Translations under genes and position numbers: made by a program
The notes under the pieces: generated by a model
What the model was told of the DNA's origin: nothing
The model's database searches: none
The model's input: only the letters and a program-made list of their open reading frames with translations
NCBI GenBank assembly: GCA_902528875.1
Contig: CABZTX010000001.1
Location: 1-51,864, forward strand
Length of the DNA: 51,864 nucleotides
Reading direction: 5' to 3'
DNA from: an uncultured SAR86 cluster bacterium
GTDB taxonomy: Bacteria > Pseudomonadota > Gammaproteobacteria > Magnimaribacterales > D2472
In this document: positions 4,450 to 49,465 of the stretch, one piece after another
Position numbering within the stretch: the stretch's first letter is position 1
How the letters are laid out: each line of letters starts with the position of its first letter

Positions 4450-5250
4450 CTATTGTTTATCGTATCTTCCTGGTGCTAATAATTTACCAAGAGCATTTAT
4501 AAACCATTGTGGAAGATATTTTAAAGTAAACACTAGGGCCTTATAAGTAAAAGTTGGTACACATAGACTTTTTCCTGATAGCGTTGCATCAACCGCTTCA
4601 TCTGCAATTCTTTTGGCTGAAAATACTAAAAATCTTGGAACGCGATCCATCTCTTCTTGAACACCGCTTGCTGTATGAAAACCGGTAATAGTGAAACCAG
4701 GGCACAAAGCAGTTGAAGTAATACCCTTATGTCTGTAGTTCACATTAATAGAATCACTAAATCTATTCATGAAGGTCTTAATTGGTCCATAAAGTGGTTG
4801 AATTGCTGACGGTGCAGCAAAGGCAGCTACAGAGGAAACAATCATTACTCTTCCTCCTCCATTTTGGATCATTTTTGGAATAAATAACTTTGTAAGCATT
4901 ATTACTGAGGTTCCAAGAACTCTTATGAACTTTTCTTCTTCCTCCACACTTGTTTTATCAAATGCAGTCTTGATACCGTACCCAGCATTATTTACAAGAA
5001 TATCTATTGAGTAATCTTTTGCTTCGCAAAATTCAAAGATTTCTTGTGTTGATTCTTTTAAACTTAAATCTTTAGAAATAATATCAACATTTATGTTATT
5101 TTTTGAACTTATGTCTTTTGCAATTTCTTCAAGCAAATCTCTCCTTCTAGCAGTCAGAATTAGGTTATATCCTTTTTCTGCAAAGTTTTTTGCAATCTCT
5201 AAGCCAATTCCAGATGATGCACCTGTGATTAACGCATATGAATTATTCAT
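4450..5250 (-). CDS. Short-chain dehydrogenase/reductase (SDR)
   Basis: The 266-residue protein is a classical SDR: the cofactor motif TGASSGIG near residues 9-16, NNAGYG around residue 90, a catalytic Ser in VSSVAAF and a YGPIK catalytic Tyr/Lys pair. It most resembles the DltE/YqjQ-like SDRs acting on ketones or hydroxysteroid-like lipids with NADP(H), but the substrate is not predictable. There is a hydrophobic C-terminal stretch (YKALVFTLKYLPQWFINALGK) that could associate with membrane. It is monocistronic, 42 bp from the divergent metalloprotease gene. Confidence 0.87.
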   Translation of the reverse strand: MNNSYALITGASSGIGLEIAKNFAEKGYNLILTARRRDLLEEIAKDISSKNNINVDIISKDLSLKESTQEIFEFCEAKDYSIDILVNNAGYGIKTAFDKTSVEEEEKFIRVLGTSVIMLTKLFIPKMIQNGGGRVMIVSSVAAFAAPSAIQPLYGPIKTFMNRFSDSINVNYRHKGITSTALCPGFTITGFHTASGVQEEMDRVPRFLVFSAKRIADEAVDATLSGKSLCVPTFTYKALVFTLKYLPQWFINALGKLLAPGRYDKQ

Positions 5251-5292: not shown

Positions 5293-7848
5293 ATGCTTAT
5301 TTTTTCGAATTTCAATATGAATTTATTAAACTATAAAAATTATTTTTCACTACTGCTATTTAGTCTTATTTTGGCCATATTTAGCATCGGTGCATTGTCG
5401 CAAACGGATGAAGGAATTTCAGATTCTGATAATGATGAAGAAAGTGAGTCAATAACAGACAAGGATGTGATGGGTCCATCTTCAAAACTAAGAAAGTGCT
5501 TAATGAAAGCAAAAAGCATGAAAGACAAAAAAAACTGTGAAAAAGAGAATATGCCAACTGTCGAGGAGTTTATTGAAGATGAAGAATTAGAATCAATAGA
5601 CGGTTTTCTAAAAATATTTTCTGATCAAGACCAGTCAATGTATTTTTTAAAATTAAACAATTCTGATTTAAATGAAAGATTTTTATATTTTGCTTACATT
5701 ATGAATGCTCCCCAGGAGAGTTCACTTACTGGCGGCCTACCTTCAGATGGAAAAGTTTTAGAATTTCGCAATTTTAAAAAAGAAAATATTGGTCTCTACC
5801 AAATTAATACTGCCTATGTTAATGGTGACGATAATAATATCGGGAGATCCACTATAACAAATATAACGGAGTCATTTATAGAAGTTTTTAAACCTGTCGC
5901 AAGATCAGAAGATTCTGTTCTTATAAGTGTAAACAATTTGCTAATGTCTGAAAAAATGGAATCTATTAGTTATGTACCAAAAGAATACAGAGAGTATATT
6001 TCTGTTAACTATGGAAGACCAGACAAAAGCAAAACATATATAAATGATGTATTTAATTATTCTACAAACACAGCAGTAGAGGTAACTTTTTCATATATGA
6101 ATATGATGCCTGATTCTGACGCATTTTCAGTTTCTGCAGTAACAGATCCAAGATATTTATCTGTAACTGCTAGGCATATTTTTATAAAGATGCCCGATGA
6201 CAAATATGAAACAAGGGTAAACGATCATAGAGTGGGATATTTTGTAAATAATTCTACTGATCTTACCTCTTATGAAAATTTTCCGAATTTTGCCCTAATA
6301 AATAAATGGAGACTTATTAAAAAATATCCAGATGCTGAAATATCTGAGCCAGTTGAACCTATTGTTTTTTGGGTTGAAAACACAACTCCTGAAGAGATTG
6401 TTCCAGCTGTTATTGCAGGTATTGAAAATTGGAATATTGCTTTCAAGGAAGCTGGTTTTAAAAATGCAATTGTTGCAAAAATTCAACCCGAAGATGCTGA
6501 TTGGGATGCTGCTGACTATGAATATAATGTAATAAGATGGTCATCAGAACCAGATGGTGGCTTACTTGGTATTGGACCAAGAGTTACAAACCCATTAACA
6601 GGCGAAATTATATCAGCTGATGTTGTTAACAAACTTCTTGCGGTTAAAGTTGGAAGAAATTATCGCAAACTCTATGGTTATACAGAAGATAATGATCCTT
6701 TAATGCAGTACATAACAAATTTAACACTCCATGAAGTTGGCCACGCTATAGGCCTTCGTCATAATTTCAGAGGAAGCTATCTATATAATCCAATTGAAAT
6801 TCATAACAAAGAATTAACAGGTAATACAATCATGAATTCTGTGATGGATTATGATCCTATAAATGTTGCTCCAGAAGGTGTTGAACAAGGAATTTATTTT
6901 TCCACTGAACCTGGTATTTATGATAAGTGGGCGATTAAGTTTGGTTATACTCCAAATTTATCAGAAGAAGATAGAAAGAGTTTACTTTTAGAGTCAGTAA
7001 AGAAAGAACTGACTTTTGGAACTGATGAAGAGGCAATGTCATCGCCAGGTTATAATATAGATCCACGTACCAAAAGATATGACATGAGTAATGATCCAAT
7101 TACTTATGCAGAAAATATAGTAAAGATTGTTGATCAAAAAATTAATGAGCTACCTGAAATTTTTGCAGACGAAGAAGGTTTTAATAACTATACCAGCTCT
7201 TTTTATAGACTTTTTAGAACAAAAGGCAGATTTTTAGAGACTGTTGCTCAACAAATTGGTGGTGTTTATATCAACAAAATATCTTCTACTCAAGATGAAT
7301 ATACAGTTCTCGAACCAGTACCATACGATAAACAAAAACAAGCTTTTAACCTTTTGAAAGAGCAAGTTTTTTCTAATGGTGCTATGAATTATGATCCAAA
7401 AATATTATCAAATTTAATATATGAAAGAGGAACTTTTCAAAGATCAAGAAGAAGTGGTAACGGCAACAATGATCCAGATTTTCATGCAATAGTTTTATCA
7501 AGCCAAAAAAATATATTAAGAAATATATTACACCCAACTGTAATGAAGAGATTAGTTAATAGCTCTTTATATGGTAATGAGTATATGCCTCAAGAAGTTT
7601 TAAATGATCTTAATTCTGCAATATTTATTGATAATGAGGATCCTGATTCGTTTAAGAGAAATTTGCAATCCTCTTATGTTGATCTGCTTATTAGTGGCTT
7701 TAAAGAGGCGCCCTATGATGACATTTCAAAATCAGCAATCTTCTATGCTTTAAAAGAAATTTCTACGTTTACTCGCAAAAACAGATTCAAGTCTGAGCAT
7801 TATGATTATCTTTATTTCTTAGTTTCTAAAGTTTTTGAGGAATATTGA
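5293..7848 (+). CDS. Exported zinc-dependent metalloprotease (DUF5117/DUF4953 type)
   Basis: The 851-residue protein has an N-terminal signal segment (NYFSLLLFSLILAIFSIGAL, cleavage probably before SQTDEG), an acidic low-complexity stretch, and a zinc-protease motif HEVGHAIGLRHNF starting near residue 480. HExGHxxGLRHNF is the hallmark of the large bacterial zinc metalloproteases annotated with DUF5117/DUF4953 domains, and a downstream SVMDYDP resembles their Met-turn. It is probably periplasmic or secreted. The ATG at 5293 or the in-frame ATG at 5317 could be the start; the second gives a more conventional signal peptide and neither has a strong SD. Its TGA overlaps the ATG of the aminotransferase (TGATG), so it leads an operon with two amino-acid catabolic enzymes. 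Confidence 0.88.
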   Translation: MLIFSNFNMNLLNYKNYFSLLLFSLILAIFSIGALSQTDEGISDSDNDEESESITDKDVMGPSSKLRKCLMKAKSMKDKKNCEKENMPTVEEFIEDEELESIDGFLKIFSDQDQSMYFLKLNNSDLNERFLYFAYIMNAPQESSLTGGLPSDGKVLEFRNFKKENIGLYQINTAYVNGDDNNIGRSTITNITESFIEVFKPVARSEDSVLISVNNLLMSEKMESISYVPKEYREYISVNYGRPDKSKTYINDVFNYSTNTAVEVTFSYMNMMPDSDAFSVSAVTDPRYLSVTARHIFIKMPDDKYETRVNDHRVGYFVNNSTDLTSYENFPNFALINKWRLIKKYPDAEISEPVEPIVFWVENTTPEEIVPAVIAGIENWNIAFKEAGFKNAIVAKIQPEDADWDAADYEYNVIRWSSEPDGGLLGIGPRVTNPLTGEIISADVVNKLLAVKVGRNYRKLYGYTEDNDPLMQYITNLTLHEVGHAIGLRHNFRGSYLYNPIEIHNKELTGNTIMNSVMDYDPINVAPEGVEQGIYFSTEPGIYDKWAIKFGYTPNLSEEDRKSLLLESVKKELTFGTDEEAMSSPGYNIDPRTKRYDMSNDPITYAENIVKIVDQKINELPEIFADEEGFNNYTSSFYRLFRTKGRFLETVAQQIGGVYINKISSTQDEYTVLEPVPYDKQKQAFNLLKEQVFSNGAMNYDPKILSNLIYERGTFQRSRRSGNGNNDPDFHAIVLSSQKNILRNILHPTVMKRLVNSSLYGNEYMPQEVLNDLNSAIFIDNEDPDSFKRNLQSSYVDLLISGFKEAPYDDISKSAIFYALKEISTFTRKNRFKSEHYDYLYFLVSKVFEEY

Positions 7849-9049: not shown

Positions 9050-9949
9050 ATGAAAAAACTTCAATCTCCCAATCATCTTTTCATGATAGAACCAAAAGAG
9101 TTTTGTAATAATCTTCAAACTCTTGATTCAAATGATTATCAGATTGTTGAACAAGATACGAGTAAAGATCAAATCTTGAAGAAAGCTAAAGATGAATTTT
9201 TTAATTTTAAAAATATAATTGAAGCACATGATATAAAAGTGACATTCATGCTTGGAAGTAATGGCTGTCCCGATCATATTTTCCCAAATTGGTTTGCTAC
9301 ATTTCAAGATAAATCTATGCAAATTTTTAGTATGAAAGCACTTAATAGACGTGCTGAAAAAATTCCATCAATGATAAAAAAATTAGAAACCGAATATAAG
9401 CTTACAGATGATTTAACCCCCTATGAAGAAAAAGGGATTTTTTTAGAATCAACTAGTAGTATGGTTTTTGATAGAGTAAATATGATTGCTTATATTGGAA
9501 AATCAGTAAGAACTAATGAAGATCTAGCCAGGGCATGGTGCTCAAAAAATGGTTTTAAAGTAGTCATTTTTGAAACAACTAATCATAAGAATAATCCTAT
9601 TTATCATACAGATGTTCTCATGTTTGTAGGAACAAATATGATTGGTCTATGTAATGAGGTTATAAATGACGAGTACAAAGAAGAAGTCCTATCTAAAGCT
9701 AAAAAATATCATGATGTTATGTTACTCACAAAGGATCAAATTCTAGATTTTTGTGGAAATGCACTTGAAGCAAGAAATAATATAGATGAAAAATATCTCA
9801 TTATGTCTTCCAGAGCCCAAAAATCTCTAACATCACCTCAAATATTAAAAATAAAAAAATATTATAAAGACATAATTCACGCAGATATACCGACCATTGA
9901 AAAATATGGAGGTGGATCTGCGAGATGTATGTTAACTGAATTATTTTAA
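9050..9949 (+). CDS. ctlX: CtlX-type citrulline hydrolase (amidinotransferase fold)
   Basis: The 299-residue protein matches the guanidine-modifying enzyme superfamily: an N-terminal Asn/Asp-containing segment (PNWFATF), an acidic FLESTSSMVFDR, a YHTDVLM catalytic-His segment and a C-terminal GGGSARCMLTE with the nucleophilic cysteine (Cys293). This combination fits the CtlX/citrulline ureidase branch, which hydrolyses citrulline to ornithine, ammonia and CO2. Other members deiminate arginine or methylarginines, so substrate is inferred. It follows an ornithine-type aminotransferase by 2 nt, giving a coherent citrulline to ornithine to glutamate-semialdehyde route. A strong bidirectional terminator lies immediately after its stop. 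Confidence 0.78.
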   Translation: MKKLQSPNHLFMIEPKEFCNNLQTLDSNDYQIVEQDTSKDQILKKAKDEFFNFKNIIEAHDIKVTFMLGSNGCPDHIFPNWFATFQDKSMQIFSMKALNRRAEKIPSMIKKLETEYKLTDDLTPYEEKGIFLESTSSMVFDRVNMIAYIGKSVRTNEDLARAWCSKNGFKVVIFETTNHKNNPIYHTDVLMFVGTNMIGLCNEVINDEYKEEVLSKAKKYHDVMLLTKDQILDFCGNALEARNNIDEKYLIMSSRAQKSLTSPQILKIKKYYKDIIHADIPTIEKYGGGSARCMLTELF

Positions 9950-22261: not shown

Positions 22262-22975
22262 ATGGGGAATATCTTTAAACTTTTTTTATGCATGCTAGTA
22301 GTTCTTGTGCTATTAGGATTTTGGCAATATTTTATTAAGGTTGATTGCAACAAAATTCTAGAATCAGCGTACTCTAATTCTTCTCTTAATACTTTTGAAA
22401 AAAATAAATTTAAAGATTTGTTGTCCACTAGATATCCTAACTTTGATGAAATGTTTAGTCAGGCTGGCATAGAAAATGAGATAGAAAAGAATTTACTTGC
22501 AGCTATCTCATTTCAAGAATCACAATGGGATCCAAAAGCAAAATCAAATATGGGTGTAAGAGGAATGATGATGGTTACCTTAGAAACTGCAGCACTTGTT
22601 GGAGTTGAAAAAAGACTAAATCCTGAACAAAATATAAATGGTGGAGCAAAGTATTTCTCAATGCTGCAACAAAAAAATAAAATTGGTCTTACTGAGGCAG
22701 ATAAATTATCTATAACACTTGCTAGTTACAATTTAGGTCCTACTAATATTAAAAATATTGCAAATTCACTTAATGACGATGTTAAAAAAGTTACTTGGAG
22801 TGAAATAAAAAATAAATTAAAAACAGTAAAAGGCTCAGATTTAAACTTGGTAGATAAAGAATCCTATTCTAGAGGCCAACAAGCTATTGATTATGTAAAT
22901 AGAGTAAGAGAGTTTTACTTGCTGATGAACGCACATGATTGTGTAGCTCCTAAAGATCAATTAATTTTCTTTTAA
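22262..22975 (+). CDS. MltF-like lytic transglycosylase lacking the solute-binding domain
   Basis: The 237-residue protein has an N-terminal membrane anchor or uncleaved signal (residues 5-23) and an SLT domain with catalytic Glu86 in AISFQESQWDP, then GVRGMMMVTLETA and ASYNLGPTNI. These are MltF-type features. E. coli MltF (about 518 residues) has a periplasmic amino-acid-binding-like domain before the SLT domain; here only about 50 residues precede it. The location divergent from purL is the MltF position in E. coli, so this is probably a reduced orthologue that cuts peptidoglycan from the inner-membrane side or the periplasm. Cys30 could be a lipobox candidate but the context is poor. Confidence 0.85.
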   Translation: MGNIFKLFLCMLVVLVLLGFWQYFIKVDCNKILESAYSNSSLNTFEKNKFKDLLSTRYPNFDEMFSQAGIENEIEKNLLAAISFQESQWDPKAKSNMGVRGMMMVTLETAALVGVEKRLNPEQNINGGAKYFSMLQQKNKIGLTEADKLSITLASYNLGPTNIKNIANSLNDDVKKVTWSEIKNKLKTVKGSDLNLVDKESYSRGQQAIDYVNRVREFYLLMNAHDCVAPKDQLIFF

Positions 22976-23028
22976 GAGAATTAATTTTATCTCTGCATAA
23001 AGCAGCTTTTTCAAATTCCATTTTTTTT
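22950..23028 (-). other. Out-of-frame UVR motif of UvrB, beyond a frameshift in an A8 tract
   Basis: Immediately after the A8 run (T8 on the plus strand, 23021-23028), removing one A makes the minus-strand frame continue as [20 protein letters not shown] and end at TAG at 22950. That is the conserved UVR coiled-coil motif that closes every normal UvrB. In the sequence as given, the annotated frame instead stops after NGI. The extended frame would overlap the end of the transglycosylase gene by 26 nt. Confidence 0.85.
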
Positions 23029-24960
23029 AGCTAAAGCAAACATTTCGTCTTCTAGTTTGCTAAGAGTTATATTTAAATTATCAATTGTGTCATCCTTAAT
23101 TTTGAATGGAATAATTTTTTCTATATCCTCTTTTTTCTTCTTTGTATTACCCTTAATTACTCTTGCTCCCTCCATAATATCTTTTACTTTAGTTGAGATA
23201 GATTTAGGACTTATATTATATTTTTTATTAAATTTTTCCTGTATTGATCTTCTTCTGTCGGTCTCATCAATAGCTCTTTGCATGGATCCTGTAATTTTAT
23301 CAGCATAAAGTATCGCTCTTCCTCTTAAGTTTCTTGCAGCCCTTCCAATAGTTTGTATTAAAGTAGTGTCTGATCTTAAGAATCCTTCTTTATCAGCATC
23401 TAAAACTGCTACTAAGCTTACCTCTGGTATATCTAATCCCTCTCTCAAAAGATTTATACCTACTAAAACATCAAATTTCCCAAGTCTTAAATCTCTAATA
23501 ATTTCTACTCTTTCAACAGTATCGATATCTGAGTGCATATATCTAGCTGAGATATTATTTTCATTAAGGTAGTCTGTTAAATCCTCTGCCATTCTTTTAG
23601 TTAATGTTGTAATTAGTACCCTTTCCTTCATGGCTACTCTTTCATTGCATTCACCAATTACATCATCAATTTGATTTGAGGCTGGTCTTATTTCAACGTC
23701 TGGATCAGTTAAGCCAGTAGGCCTAATAATTAACTCAACAAGATTATCTTGATGTTCTTTTTCATATCGACTCGGGGTAGCAGAAACATAAATTCTTTGT
23801 GGAGCTAACATCTCCCATTCCTCAAATTTTAATGGTCTATTATCTAGTGCTGAAGGTAATCTAAAACCATATTCAACGAGAGTTTCTTTTCTAGATCTAT
23901 CTCCTTTATACATAGCACCAATTTGTGGTACTGATACATGAGACTCATCTATAAAAACAACAGCATCTTTGGGTATATAGTCGAAAAGACATGGTGGTGA
24001 TTCTCCTGGATTTCTTCCACTTAAATATCTTGAATAGTTCTCTATGCCTTGACAATAACCAAGCTCTCGCATCATTTCTATGTCATAAGTTGTTCTTTCT
24101 TGAAGACGTTGAGCCTCAACAAGTTTATTATTATCTTTTAAAAACTTTAGGCGCGATTTAAGCTCATTCTTAATATCTGGAATGCAATTGGTAACAGTTT
24201 CTTTTGGAGTAACATAATGCGTCTTTGGAAATATGGTTGCCCTTGGTATTTCATTTATAAGAACACCAGTAAGAGGATCAAACCATGATAATTTTTCTAT
24301 TTCATCCCCAAAAAATTCTATCCTCAAAGCTTCTTTATCAGAATCTGCTGGATATACATCAACTGTATCACCTCTGACTCTAAATGTTGCTCTTCTGAAA
24401 TCTAAATCATTTCGAGTGTATTGAAGTGAAGAAAGCCTTAGAACTAAATCTCTTTGAGAAATTGTATCGCCTCTGTCTAAATGAACAACCATCTTCAGAT
24501 ATGATTCAGGAGCACCTAGGCCGTATATAGAGGAGACAGTTGCAACTACAATGGTATCTTTACGTTCTATCAAAGCTTTGGTTGCAGATAATCGCATCTG
24601 CTCAATATGCTCATTTATTGATGCATCTTTAGCAATATAAGTATCTGAAGTTGGAACGTATGCTTCAGGTTGATAATAATCATAATAAGAAACAAAATAT
24701 TCAACTGAGTTGTTGGGGAAGAAGTCTCTAAACTCTCCATATAATTGTGCTGCAAGAGTTTTGTTGTGCGCCATTACAATTGCTGGTCTTTGTATTTGCT
24801 CAATAACCTTTGCCATTGTGTATGTTTTTCCAGAACCGGTAACACCTAAAAGAGTTTGATGCAGTAGACCATCTTGCAAACCTGTAACTAAATTATTAAT
24901 AGCTTCTGGTTGCGATCCGGCTGGTTCAAAGTCCGAAACTACCTTTAATGTTTTTGTCAT
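23011..24960 (-). CDS. uvrB: Excinuclease ABC subunit B, C-terminally truncated by frameshift
   Basis: UvrB is the damage-verifying helicase-like subunit of nucleotide excision repair. Seen are Walker [11 protein letters not shown], the beta-hairpin [25 protein letters not shown], and the helicase motifs [10 protein letters not shown] and QTIGRAARN. The 649 residues cover all helicase domains, but the C-terminal UVR domain that binds UvrC is cut after its first residues by a frameshift in an A8 run at 23021-23028. The motif resumes in the next frame, so either the deposited sequence has an indel error or slippage restores a full protein of about 670 residues. No LexA-type operator is visible in the short gap upstream. 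Confidence 0.95.
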
Positions 24961-25005: not shown

Positions 25006-25080
25006 TCCTCAGTAGCTCAGCGGTAGAGCAGTTGACTGTTAATCAATTGGTCGTTGGTTCGATCCCAACCTGAGGAGCCA
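25006..25080 (+). tRNA. tRNA-Asn(GTT)
   Basis: Acceptor TCCTCAG pairs with CTGAGGA; the D arm AGCTCAGCGGTAGAGC, anticodon loop CTGTTAA with anticodon GTT, T arm GGTTCGATCC and an encoded CCA end are all visible. The sequence is close to E. coli tRNA-Asn. It lies between the divergent uvrB and the convergent arsC-like gene. Confidence 0.97.
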
Positions 25081-30395: not shown

Positions 30396-30629
30396 TTACT
30401 TAAACTCACAGGTCATTTTTGCAACAACTTCTCCTTCAACTGCTAAATTTAATTTAGCTCTTCCTTCCATTGTTCCAGTGACAGTACATTGTTCAATACT
30501 TTCTTCAACAATCATTCTAACAATCTGTTTTAATTCAGATACTGATAATTCACTAACTGTTCTCTCAGGCTCATCATTTGCAAAAAATAGTCCAGAGAAA
30601 AACATACAAATCAATAATACAAATTTCAT
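30396..30629 (-). CDS. Small exported protein of unknown function
   Basis: The 77-residue protein starts with a signal peptide (MKFVLLICMFFSGLFFA, cleavage before NDEP) and leaves a mature domain of about 60 residues with two cysteines (Cys48, Cys75) that could form a disulfide. It heads the small minus-strand set ending in DUF2237. A divergent, AT-rich 67-bp gap separates it from the DCC-family gene. I recognise no family. Confidence 0.6.
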   Translation of the reverse strand: MKFVLLICMFFSGLFFANDEPERTVSELSVSELKQIVRMIVEESIEQCTVTGTMEGRAKLNLAVEGEVVAKMTCEFK

Positions 30630-30696
30630 TTTTTAACCTCGCAGAATATATATATTTTATTATATTAATTTTAATAATTATTGGTATTATATTTTT

Positions 30697-31017
30697 ATGA
30701 AAGAATGCAAAGTCTTGTTTAATGAAAAATGTTCAATATGTAATTTTGAGGTTAAGCATTATAAAAAAAGATCAAATTTAAATTTTGTTGACTGCAGTTC
30801 AATGGAAGACAAATACCTAAAAAAACTACATATCGTATTTGACGATGGTTCAGAGTTATCTGGAGTTGATGCGTTTATTCTAGTTTGGAAAAACACAAAG
30901 GGCTATGGTTGGCTAGCTAATATTGTACAGGCTAAAGGAATATATCATTTAGCTAAAATTGCTTATTTCTTTTTAGCATATCTTTTATTTTGGAGATATA
31001 AATATTTTGTTAAATGA
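30697..31017 (+). CDS. DCC-family (DUF393) thiol-disulfide oxidoreductase-like protein
   Basis: The 106-residue protein begins with FNEKCSICNFEVKHY, the DCC motif with a CxxC pair (Cys15, Cys18), and continues with the DGSELSGVDAF segment typical of DUF393. A C-terminal hydrophobic stretch (IAYFFLAYLLF) probably associates with membrane. Family members are thioredoxin-like in fold prediction; the reaction is unproven. The usual YDG before the first Cys is replaced by FNE. It ends just before the Fur-like element. Confidence 0.75.
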   Translation: MKECKVLFNEKCSICNFEVKHYKKRSNLNFVDCSSMEDKYLKKLHIVFDDGSELSGVDAFILVWKNTKGYGWLANIVQAKGIYHLAKIAYFFLAYLLFWRYKYFVK

Positions 31018-46871: not shown

Positions 46872-47954
46872 CTATTCTGTAAATGGTAGTTTTTGGTCAA
46901 CATCAGCGCACTGTGCTCTATTAATTAATAAGTGATCTACCAAAACAATACTTACCATTGCTTCAGCAATTGGAACAGCTCTAATGCCAACACAAGGGTC
47001 ATGTCTTCCTTTAACTTCTATGTCAACTTCTTCGCCATCCTTATTTACAGTTTTACCTTTTGTTTTTATGCTTGAGGTTGGCTTAATAATAAAGCTAAGA
47101 TTTATATCGTCTCCATTAGATATTCCTCCAAGTATTCCTCCTGAATTATTTGAGGAATAGCCAGACGCTGTGATTTCATCTCTTGCTTCAGAACCTTTTA
47201 AGGTTAAAAGATCATCTACATTCCCAATAGATACTGATTTGACTGCATTGATTGTCATTATTGCTTTCGCAAGATTAGCATCAAGCTTCTCAAAAACTGG
47301 ATCACCAAGACCTACTGGACAATTTTCAACAATAACTCCTAACTTTGCACCCACAGAATTACCCTCTTCAATTAATTTGTTAAACATTGAATCTAATTCA
47401 GAAAGTTTTGACTCGTCACAAAAAAAATATTTGTTTGCAGTTTTTTTATGATTTATAGTTTCAGCTTTTATTTTACCAATTTCAGAAACAAATCCATTTA
47501 CGGTTATCCCTTCTTTTTGAAGTATTTTTTTAGCAACTGCTCCAGCAGCAACCCAATTTACAGTTTCCCTAGCGCTGGCTCTTCCTCCACCTCTATAATC
47601 TCGGTGGCCATATTTTGCTTGATAAGTAATGTCTGCATGATTTGGTCTAAATACATCTTTAATATCTGAGTAATCTTTTGATTTTTGATCTTTGTTGTAA
47701 ATTATCATTCCTATTGGAGTCCCAAGCGTTTTTCCTTCAAAAACACCTGACATTATCTCAACTGCATCATCTTCTTTTCTTTGAGTAGTTACATCTGACT
47801 GTCCTGGTTTTCTCCTGTCTAATTCAAGTTGAATATCTTCTTTGGTAAGTTCTATTTGAGGCGGACATCCATCAAGAATTGAGCCCATAGCTCTGCCATG
47901 ACTCTCTCCAAAAGTCGTAATTTTAAATATTTTTCCAAACGTATTGCCTGACAT
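46872..47954 (-). CDS. aroC: Chorismate synthase
   Basis: The 360-residue enzyme makes chorismate from EPSP using reduced FMN. It contains [37 protein letters not shown] and [12 protein letters not shown] signatures; the late [17 protein letters not shown] is also typical. A TATAAT-like box lies about 10 nt before the ATG on the minus strand, so a near-leaderless transcript from the 59-bp gap is possible, though read-through from prpD is equally likely. Confidence 0.97.
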
Positions 47955-48013: not shown

Positions 48014-49465
48014 TTAGGTTTTTTTAGATAACAAGCTTTGAAAATCTACTACAGAGGTTTCTTCTAGTTCTTGTTGACTCATACAAAGTTCAAATATTCT
48101 TTTAGAAATATCTTCATCATAAGTAATTGCTAAATTAGATTTAAATTTATTTTCTAACACTGGTATGCCTTCATCTCTTCTTCTCATATGGCCAATGGGG
48201 TACTCAACCTCGATTTCATCTGTTGAAGTACCATCATTAAAATAAATTTTTATTCTATTTGCGATGGATCTTTTATCACCATCAAGATAATCTTTCGAAT
48301 ATTTTTTATCCTCAATAACAGTCATTTTTTCTCTTAATATGTCTATTCTCGGATCTTCTGCAACATCATCCTCGTAATCTTCCGCTATTAAATTTCCCTT
48401 AAGCAATCCAATTGCAACCATATACTGCAAACAATGATCTCTATCAGCAGGATTATTTAATTCTCCAACTTTTGAAATAATTCTTATTGCAGATTCGTGC
48501 GTTGTAATTTCAATTAATTTAATTTCATTAATTCTATCTTTAACAACATTGTGAAGCTTTACAGAAGCTTCTATTGCTGTTTGGGCATGAAACTCAGCAG
48601 GAAAACTAATTTTAAAAAGAATATTTTCCATAACGTAGGTTCCAAATGGTTGAGGTAATACAATTTGTTTTCCATCAAATAAAACGTCTTCAAATCCCCA
48701 TACTGGAGTAGAGAGAACACTTGGATATCCCATTTCTCCAGACATAGTTATCATTGATAGTCTAACAGCTCTACTTGTAGCATCGCCAGCTGCCCAACTT
48801 TTTCTTGTTCCTGCATTTGGAGCATGTCTATATGTTCTTAAACTGTGGCCATCGACCCAAGCCTGGCTTACAGCATCTTTAATTTGATCAATAGAACCAC
48901 CCATTAATTTAGTTGCAATTGCAGTTGAAGCAACTTTCACTAAAACGACATGGTCTAACCCTACTTTATTAAAACTATTTTCAAGGGCTAAGACTCCTTG
49001 AATCTCATGAGCCATAATCATTGACTCTAATACGGTTCGCATTTTAAGTGACGCTTTTCCACTTGCAATGTTTTGCTGAGATATAAAATCACAAACTGAT
49101 AAAATTGCACCTAAATTATCAGATGGATGACCCCATTCAGCAGCAAGCCATGTATCGTTATAATCAAGCCATCTAACAATGCAACCGATATCAAATGCGC
49201 CTTTAACCGGATCAAGCTCATAATCTGTTCCAGGTACTCTTACCCCAAAAGGCACTTTGCTATCCTTAACGATTGGACCTAGCATTTTTGTACAAGCTGG
49301 AAATTGAAGTGCTAATAAACCACATCCGATAGTATCCAATAGGCAATTTCTTGCAGTATCTAATGCCAAATCAGATTCGATTTCGAAAGAAGAAACGTAA
49401 TTAGCTATTTCAGAAATTAAGTTATCAAAATCTGGTCTGATATTCAGATCAACATTTGATGACAT
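48014..49465 (-). CDS. prpD: 2-methylcitrate dehydratase
   Basis: The 483-residue MmgE/PrpD-family protein starts a domain with [18 protein letters not shown] and contains [19 protein letters not shown] and the [13 protein letters not shown] segment. PrpD dehydrates 2-methylcitrate; the product is hydrated to methylisocitrate by an aconitase, perhaps AcnB encoded in this window. Assignment to PrpD rather than another MmgE member rests on the adjoining prpC and prpB genes. It follows prpC by 4 nt. Confidence 0.95.

Follow-up and report, generated by a model that had tools for sequence, protein, structure and literature searches.

A one-base poly(A) difference places the UVR motif of uvrB out of frame in a single SAR86 draft genome

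Introduction

In the insect endosymbionts Blochmannia and Buchnera, genes that carry a frameshift in a poly(A) tract can still give full-length products by slippage (PMC3017870). Some of these frameshifts are common to populations or species, and tracts are counted there as long from 9 bases upward. Four others are confined to B. vafer, without sign of faster evolution, and in earlier work cited in that paper about 30% of the transcripts were corrected by slippage. For Buchnera, transcript errors have been counted: 151 of 157 insertions lay in homopolymers and 16 of 57 deletions, the latter given elsewhere in the same paper as 15 (21%) of 70 in total (PMC5574713). A further system is M.HaeIII in E. 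coli. During laboratory drift frameshifting indels in homonucleotide repeats of this gene were bypassed, including frameshifts in an 8A repeat (PMC3812077).

Here we analyze a uvrB gene on a stretch of 51,864 nucleotides (the window) from an uncultured bacterium of the SAR86 cluster. As in Blochmannia and Buchnera the genome is AT-rich, a single poly(A) indel is involved and the gene is otherwise intact; and just as the four B. vafer cases are confined to one species, that of uvrB is confined to one assembly (PMC3017870). The locus differs from the endosymbiont cases in having an A8 tract, in being found in one assembly and in being known from sequence alone. The latter also sets it apart from M.HaeIII, which drifted in the laboratory under selection, whereas both genes share an 8A repeat that in E. 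coli is slippable and yields some full-length protein (PMC3812077). Compared with UvrB as such (excinuclease ABC subunit B, TIGR00631/NF003673), the protein of the window has the helicase, interaction and UvrB domains, but its C-terminal UVR motif is one base out of frame, and this in only one assembly among the covered genomes of the genus.

Results

The uvrB frame ends ahead of the UVR motif

The uvrB frame of the window is defined here by its open reading frame and not by a gene annotation. It starts at position 24960 on the minus strand and runs for 649 codons to a TGA (Table 1). The encoded protein scores 1014.1 bits against TIGR00631 (equivalog cut-off 750.1) and thus belongs to UvrB, and the Pfam domains UvrB_inter, UvrB, Helicase_C and ResIII are all above their cut-offs. 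The UVR motif PF02151 is not matched in this open reading frame (Pfam search, E <= 0.001). It is found in another frame of the window at 22968-23027 with 24.2 bits (cut-off 21.5); in the UvrB of genome G010 the same motif reaches 35.6 bits. On the minus strand the tract reads GCT, A8 and TGG AAT TTG A. In the uvrB frame the codons past the A8 (23028-23021) are AAT GGA ATT, and then follows the TGA at 23013-23011. The first-pass annotation had described a UvrB frame that ends three codons after an A8 with the UVR motif out of frame, and the sequence, the open reading frame and the PF02151 match bear this out. The frame that it proposed to restore does end at 22950, where a TAG is read at 22952-22950.

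Table 1. Position of the uvrB features within the window
Feature	Position	Strand	Basis
uvrB open reading frame, 649 aa, stops ahead of the UVR motif	23011..24960	-	ORF, TIGR00631 and Pfam domains
A8 homopolymer (T8 on the plus strand); G010 and G007 have one A fewer	23021..23028	-	sequence and relatives
Premature TGA, 3 codons past the A8	23011..23013	-	sequence, ORF
UVR-motif tail in the other frame, TAG at 22952-22950	22950..23027	-	PF02151 match at 22968-23027
Lytic transglycosylase-like gene (SLT domain), convergent with uvrB	22262..22975	+	ORF and domain match

The DNA of the UVR tail is the same as that of the in-frame UvrB tail of genomes G010 and G007. Therefore the out-of-frame match is no chance event. 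For the RNA from the GCT codon to the stop (82 nt) a single fold gave -12.8 kcal/mol, from which we draw no conclusion on a stimulatory structure.

The UVR tail, which extends to 22950, overlaps the transglycosylase open reading frame 22262-22975 on the opposite strand by 26 nt. This overlap had been pointed out before and is both correct and conserved: between uvrB and the convergent transglycosylase-like gene it measures 26 nt in 25 of 27 relatives of the genus and 35 nt in the other two. At its other end uvrB is neighboured, directly upstream and on the opposite strand, by a tRNA-Asn gene (anticodon gtt, window 25006-25080). In several relatives the apparent start of a tRNA-Asn gene is seen at the same site beside uvrB.

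Comparison with close relatives and with the genus

By its UvrB, G010 is the nearest genome. Its UvrB has 669 residues, to which that of the window is 98.9% identical over 646 residues (1-646), and it aligns with the entire window in one piece with 94.1% DNA identity. G007 aligns over 21.8 kb with 93.9% identity and three one-base gaps, which lie at the start of the open reading frame 9050-9949, just past its end and at an A of the uvrB tract. Between CTAGAAGAC before the tract and the TAG, every letter of the window is shared by G010 and G007, except that these two have an A7. With run length as the sole difference among the three sequences, the out-of-frame tail shows no decay.

The genus set consists of 34 genomes including that of the window, and the tract is covered in 27 of the 33 others. 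In G024 and G033 the contig ends before the tract, and G002, G006, G009 and G018, which are incomplete assemblies, have no uvrB match. All 27 covered relatives have a single frame across the tract and a stop directly after the terminal IDL. The tract itself is variable. In 12 relatives GCT or GCG is followed by A7, in 7 the codon is GCA and hence an A8 is present in frame, and in 8 the run is broken by a G. An out-of-frame A8, whose conservation would have spoken for programmed slippage or frameshifting, occurs in 0 of the 27. Moreover, an A8 by itself is no recoding signal because seven members of the genus have it in frame. In G020 the piece of uvrB that spans the tract is in frame. The retention of the UVR tail throughout the 27 covered relatives suggests purifying selection.

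Comparison within the family

A uvrB match (E <= 1e-60) is present in 89 of 107 genomes of the family and absent from 18. In 82 of the 89 uvrB is open in one frame over 669 residues or more, a count that outside the genus refers to the length of the frame only, as the tail was read fully in L119 and partly in L120 and L121. The other seven are the genome of the window, three genomes with uvrB at contig ends (G020, G024, G033) and three with uvrB in pieces (G073, G077, G103). Of the 107 genomes only that of the window has the exact out-of-frame pattern; the search finds this form of the tract, and out-of-frame tracts with other codons, as in distant genera, would escape it. In a named genome collection, from which near records were possibly left out, 80 UvrB proteins have 58-72% identity in the best segment. 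The best of these named matches make the organism a probable gammaproteobacterium.

In G103 (L138), G073 (L139) and G077 (L140) the pieces of uvrB lie in different frames, and the breaks are elsewhere than at this tract. G103 and G077 each have an unbroken UVR tail. The tail of G073 aligns weakly (43% identity), and no UVR motif was confirmed in it. The broken uvrB of these three genomes may be due to indel errors in their assemblies.

These counts bear on whether the A8 could be a site of programmed or relied-upon recoding, at which transcriptional slippage with loss of one A or +1 ribosomal frameshifting would give rise to a short and a full-length UvrB. There is precedent for such a mechanism, as E. 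coli made functional protein despite frameshifts in an 8A repeat (PMC3812077) and slippage gives full-length products of frameshifted poly(A) genes in Blochmannia and Buchnera (PMC3017870). Furthermore, deletions of a single base are the most frequent kind in Buchnera transcripts; more than half of these single-base deletions lie in homopolymers, at a rate which goes up with the length of the run (PMC5574713). However, the out-of-frame tract is unconserved in the genus and its exact pattern is absent from the other 106 family genomes, and in the seven genus members with an in-frame A8 efficient slippage would harm the protein. Recoding here would need the loss of a base, yet homopolymers hold nearly all the insertions but a minority of the deletions in the Buchnera counts, and none of the transcript errors described there restored a frame (PMC5574713). 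An A8 is also below the at least 9 bases that are counted as long (PMC3017870). In our view recoding at this tract is hardly credible, and the suggestion that the A8 is relied on for two forms of UvrB finds no support in these genomes.

Quality of the assembly

The source genome is an AT-rich draft of 47 contigs and 1.03 Mb which is 74.1% complete. The contig that bears the window has 125,903 bases and 63 A/T runs of at least 8, coding or not. With so many runs on this contig and the sampled open reading frames looking clean, frequent consensus errors at long A/T runs are unlikely. Of 108 pairs of open reading frames with the contig of G010, 103 share the C-terminus. Five do not, namely uvrB and four open reading frames that differ by 1-4 residues. 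This comparison also flagged two open reading frames with differing N-ends. The indel list has no gap against G010 within the flagged open reading frames 46872-47954 and 48014-49465; two more flagged open reading frames, at 74054-74662 and 107681-108058 of contig C1, are beyond the window.

A wider sample compared 360,603 bases of the source genome, including the contig of the window, with 415,305 bases of G010. We considered open reading frames of at least 100 residues whose homologue was at least 85% identical and tolerated up to 12 missing residues per end, so that small frameshifts at the ends would escape. From 154 open reading frames of G010, 147 correspond, five are at edges and two were flagged, namely uvrB and one near position 30658. 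In the reverse direction 149 of 151 correspond and two are at edges; this direction is blind to uvrB because just three end residues are foreign. With 12 end residues tolerated, uvrB is the sole frameshift in a conserved protein that was found among the 154. Finding this frameshift alone argues against an assembly very rich in errors, but a single consensus error and a single mutation would look alike here.

The candidate near 30658, where the window has 10 bases fewer than G010, was rejected as a frameshift, its N-terminal stretch being poorly conserved in the genus. The open reading frame (window 30578-31017) has a match in 24 of 34 genus genomes, and upstream of about residue 24-44 it is often unmatched or interrupted by stops; the longer open match in G010, G007 and G024 is the exception. 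From these alignments the gene common to the genus is best taken as the open reading frame 30697-31017 with 106 residues.

Other gaps against G010 lie inside the poorly aligned open reading frame 5293-7848, which has many, and in or at the edges of the open reading frames 461-1063, 4450-5250 and 9050-9949, which have some. We take them as in-frame, compensating or end changes because the proteins correspond to those of G010. The open reading frame 5293-7848 (851 aa) is less conserved than its neighbourhood, with 85% protein identity to G010 and many gaps in the first 200 bases.

Excision repair elsewhere in the genome

A search of the genome, at its 74.1% completeness, did not find a second uvrB; besides the gene of the window it returned one helicase stretch of 28% identity. 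UvrC is present as an open frame of 598 residues above its cut-off. UvrA is present as a C-terminal piece only, which lies at the first base of contig C10 and scores 588.2 bits against a cut-off of 729.8. A general decay of excision repair was considered and rejected, as UvrC is open and above its cut-off and the partial UvrA fits a contig break. Domain 4 of UvrB is presumably this UVR domain. If the A8 is real, a short UvrB without it would probably recruit UvrC poorly.

Discussion

The sequences compared show a one-base indel which only one of the covered draft genomes carries, most likely an ordinary event that calls for no new mechanism. Where the close relatives have an A7, this assembly has one base inserted in an otherwise ordinary uvrB. 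The first-pass annotation had offered either a homopolymer error or reliance on slippage. An error fits the evidence, as does a real private mutation, and reliance on slippage does not, given that no covered genus relative has the tract out of frame. We think that the A8, which we know from the assembled sequence, is probably a consensus error in a homopolymer that arose during sequencing, amplification or assembly. The organism itself would then have a normal UvrB of about 669 residues including the UVR motif.

A possible but less probable explanation is that the frameshift is real, private and very recent, having arisen by slippage of the DNA polymerase in the A7 of the sampled cell or sub-population. 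Such a cell would make a UvrB without the UVR motif, UvrC would probably not be engaged normally, and there would perhaps be slight leaky read-through at the A8. In the laboratory drift of M.HaeIII indels were found mainly in homonucleotide repeats and rose with the length of the repeat (PMC3812077), which agrees with a mutation of this kind. That no further frameshift in a conserved protein turned up among the 154 open reading frames also agrees, since a real mutation accounts for a single isolated event about as readily as an error does. On the other hand, the tail that would be lost is kept in all 27 covered relatives, which suggests purifying selection. Moreover, uvrB shows no signs of decay, as is seen from its 98.9% identity to G010, and the mutation would therefore need to be young.

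It is very unlikely, in our estimate, that the change from A7 to A8 is real in one lineage and tolerated there, with slippage supplying enough full-length UvrB alongside a pool of UvrB that lacks the UVR motif. The frameshift would then be young and maintained through leaky expression in an AT-rich and probably free-living bacterium. Restriction of a frameshift to a single species does not disprove such a rescue, since four are confined to B. vafer (PMC3017870).

In summary, we suggest that the separated UVR motif is best read as the private one-base indel described above, and the comparison with near relatives clears most of the puzzle. The case is a caution that one homopolymer indel in a draft genome can mimic the loss of a repair domain or recoding. 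If the A8 is true and expressed, uvrB would be a further case of leaky poly(A) slippage, and one outside the insect endosymbionts (PMC3017870, PMC5574713).
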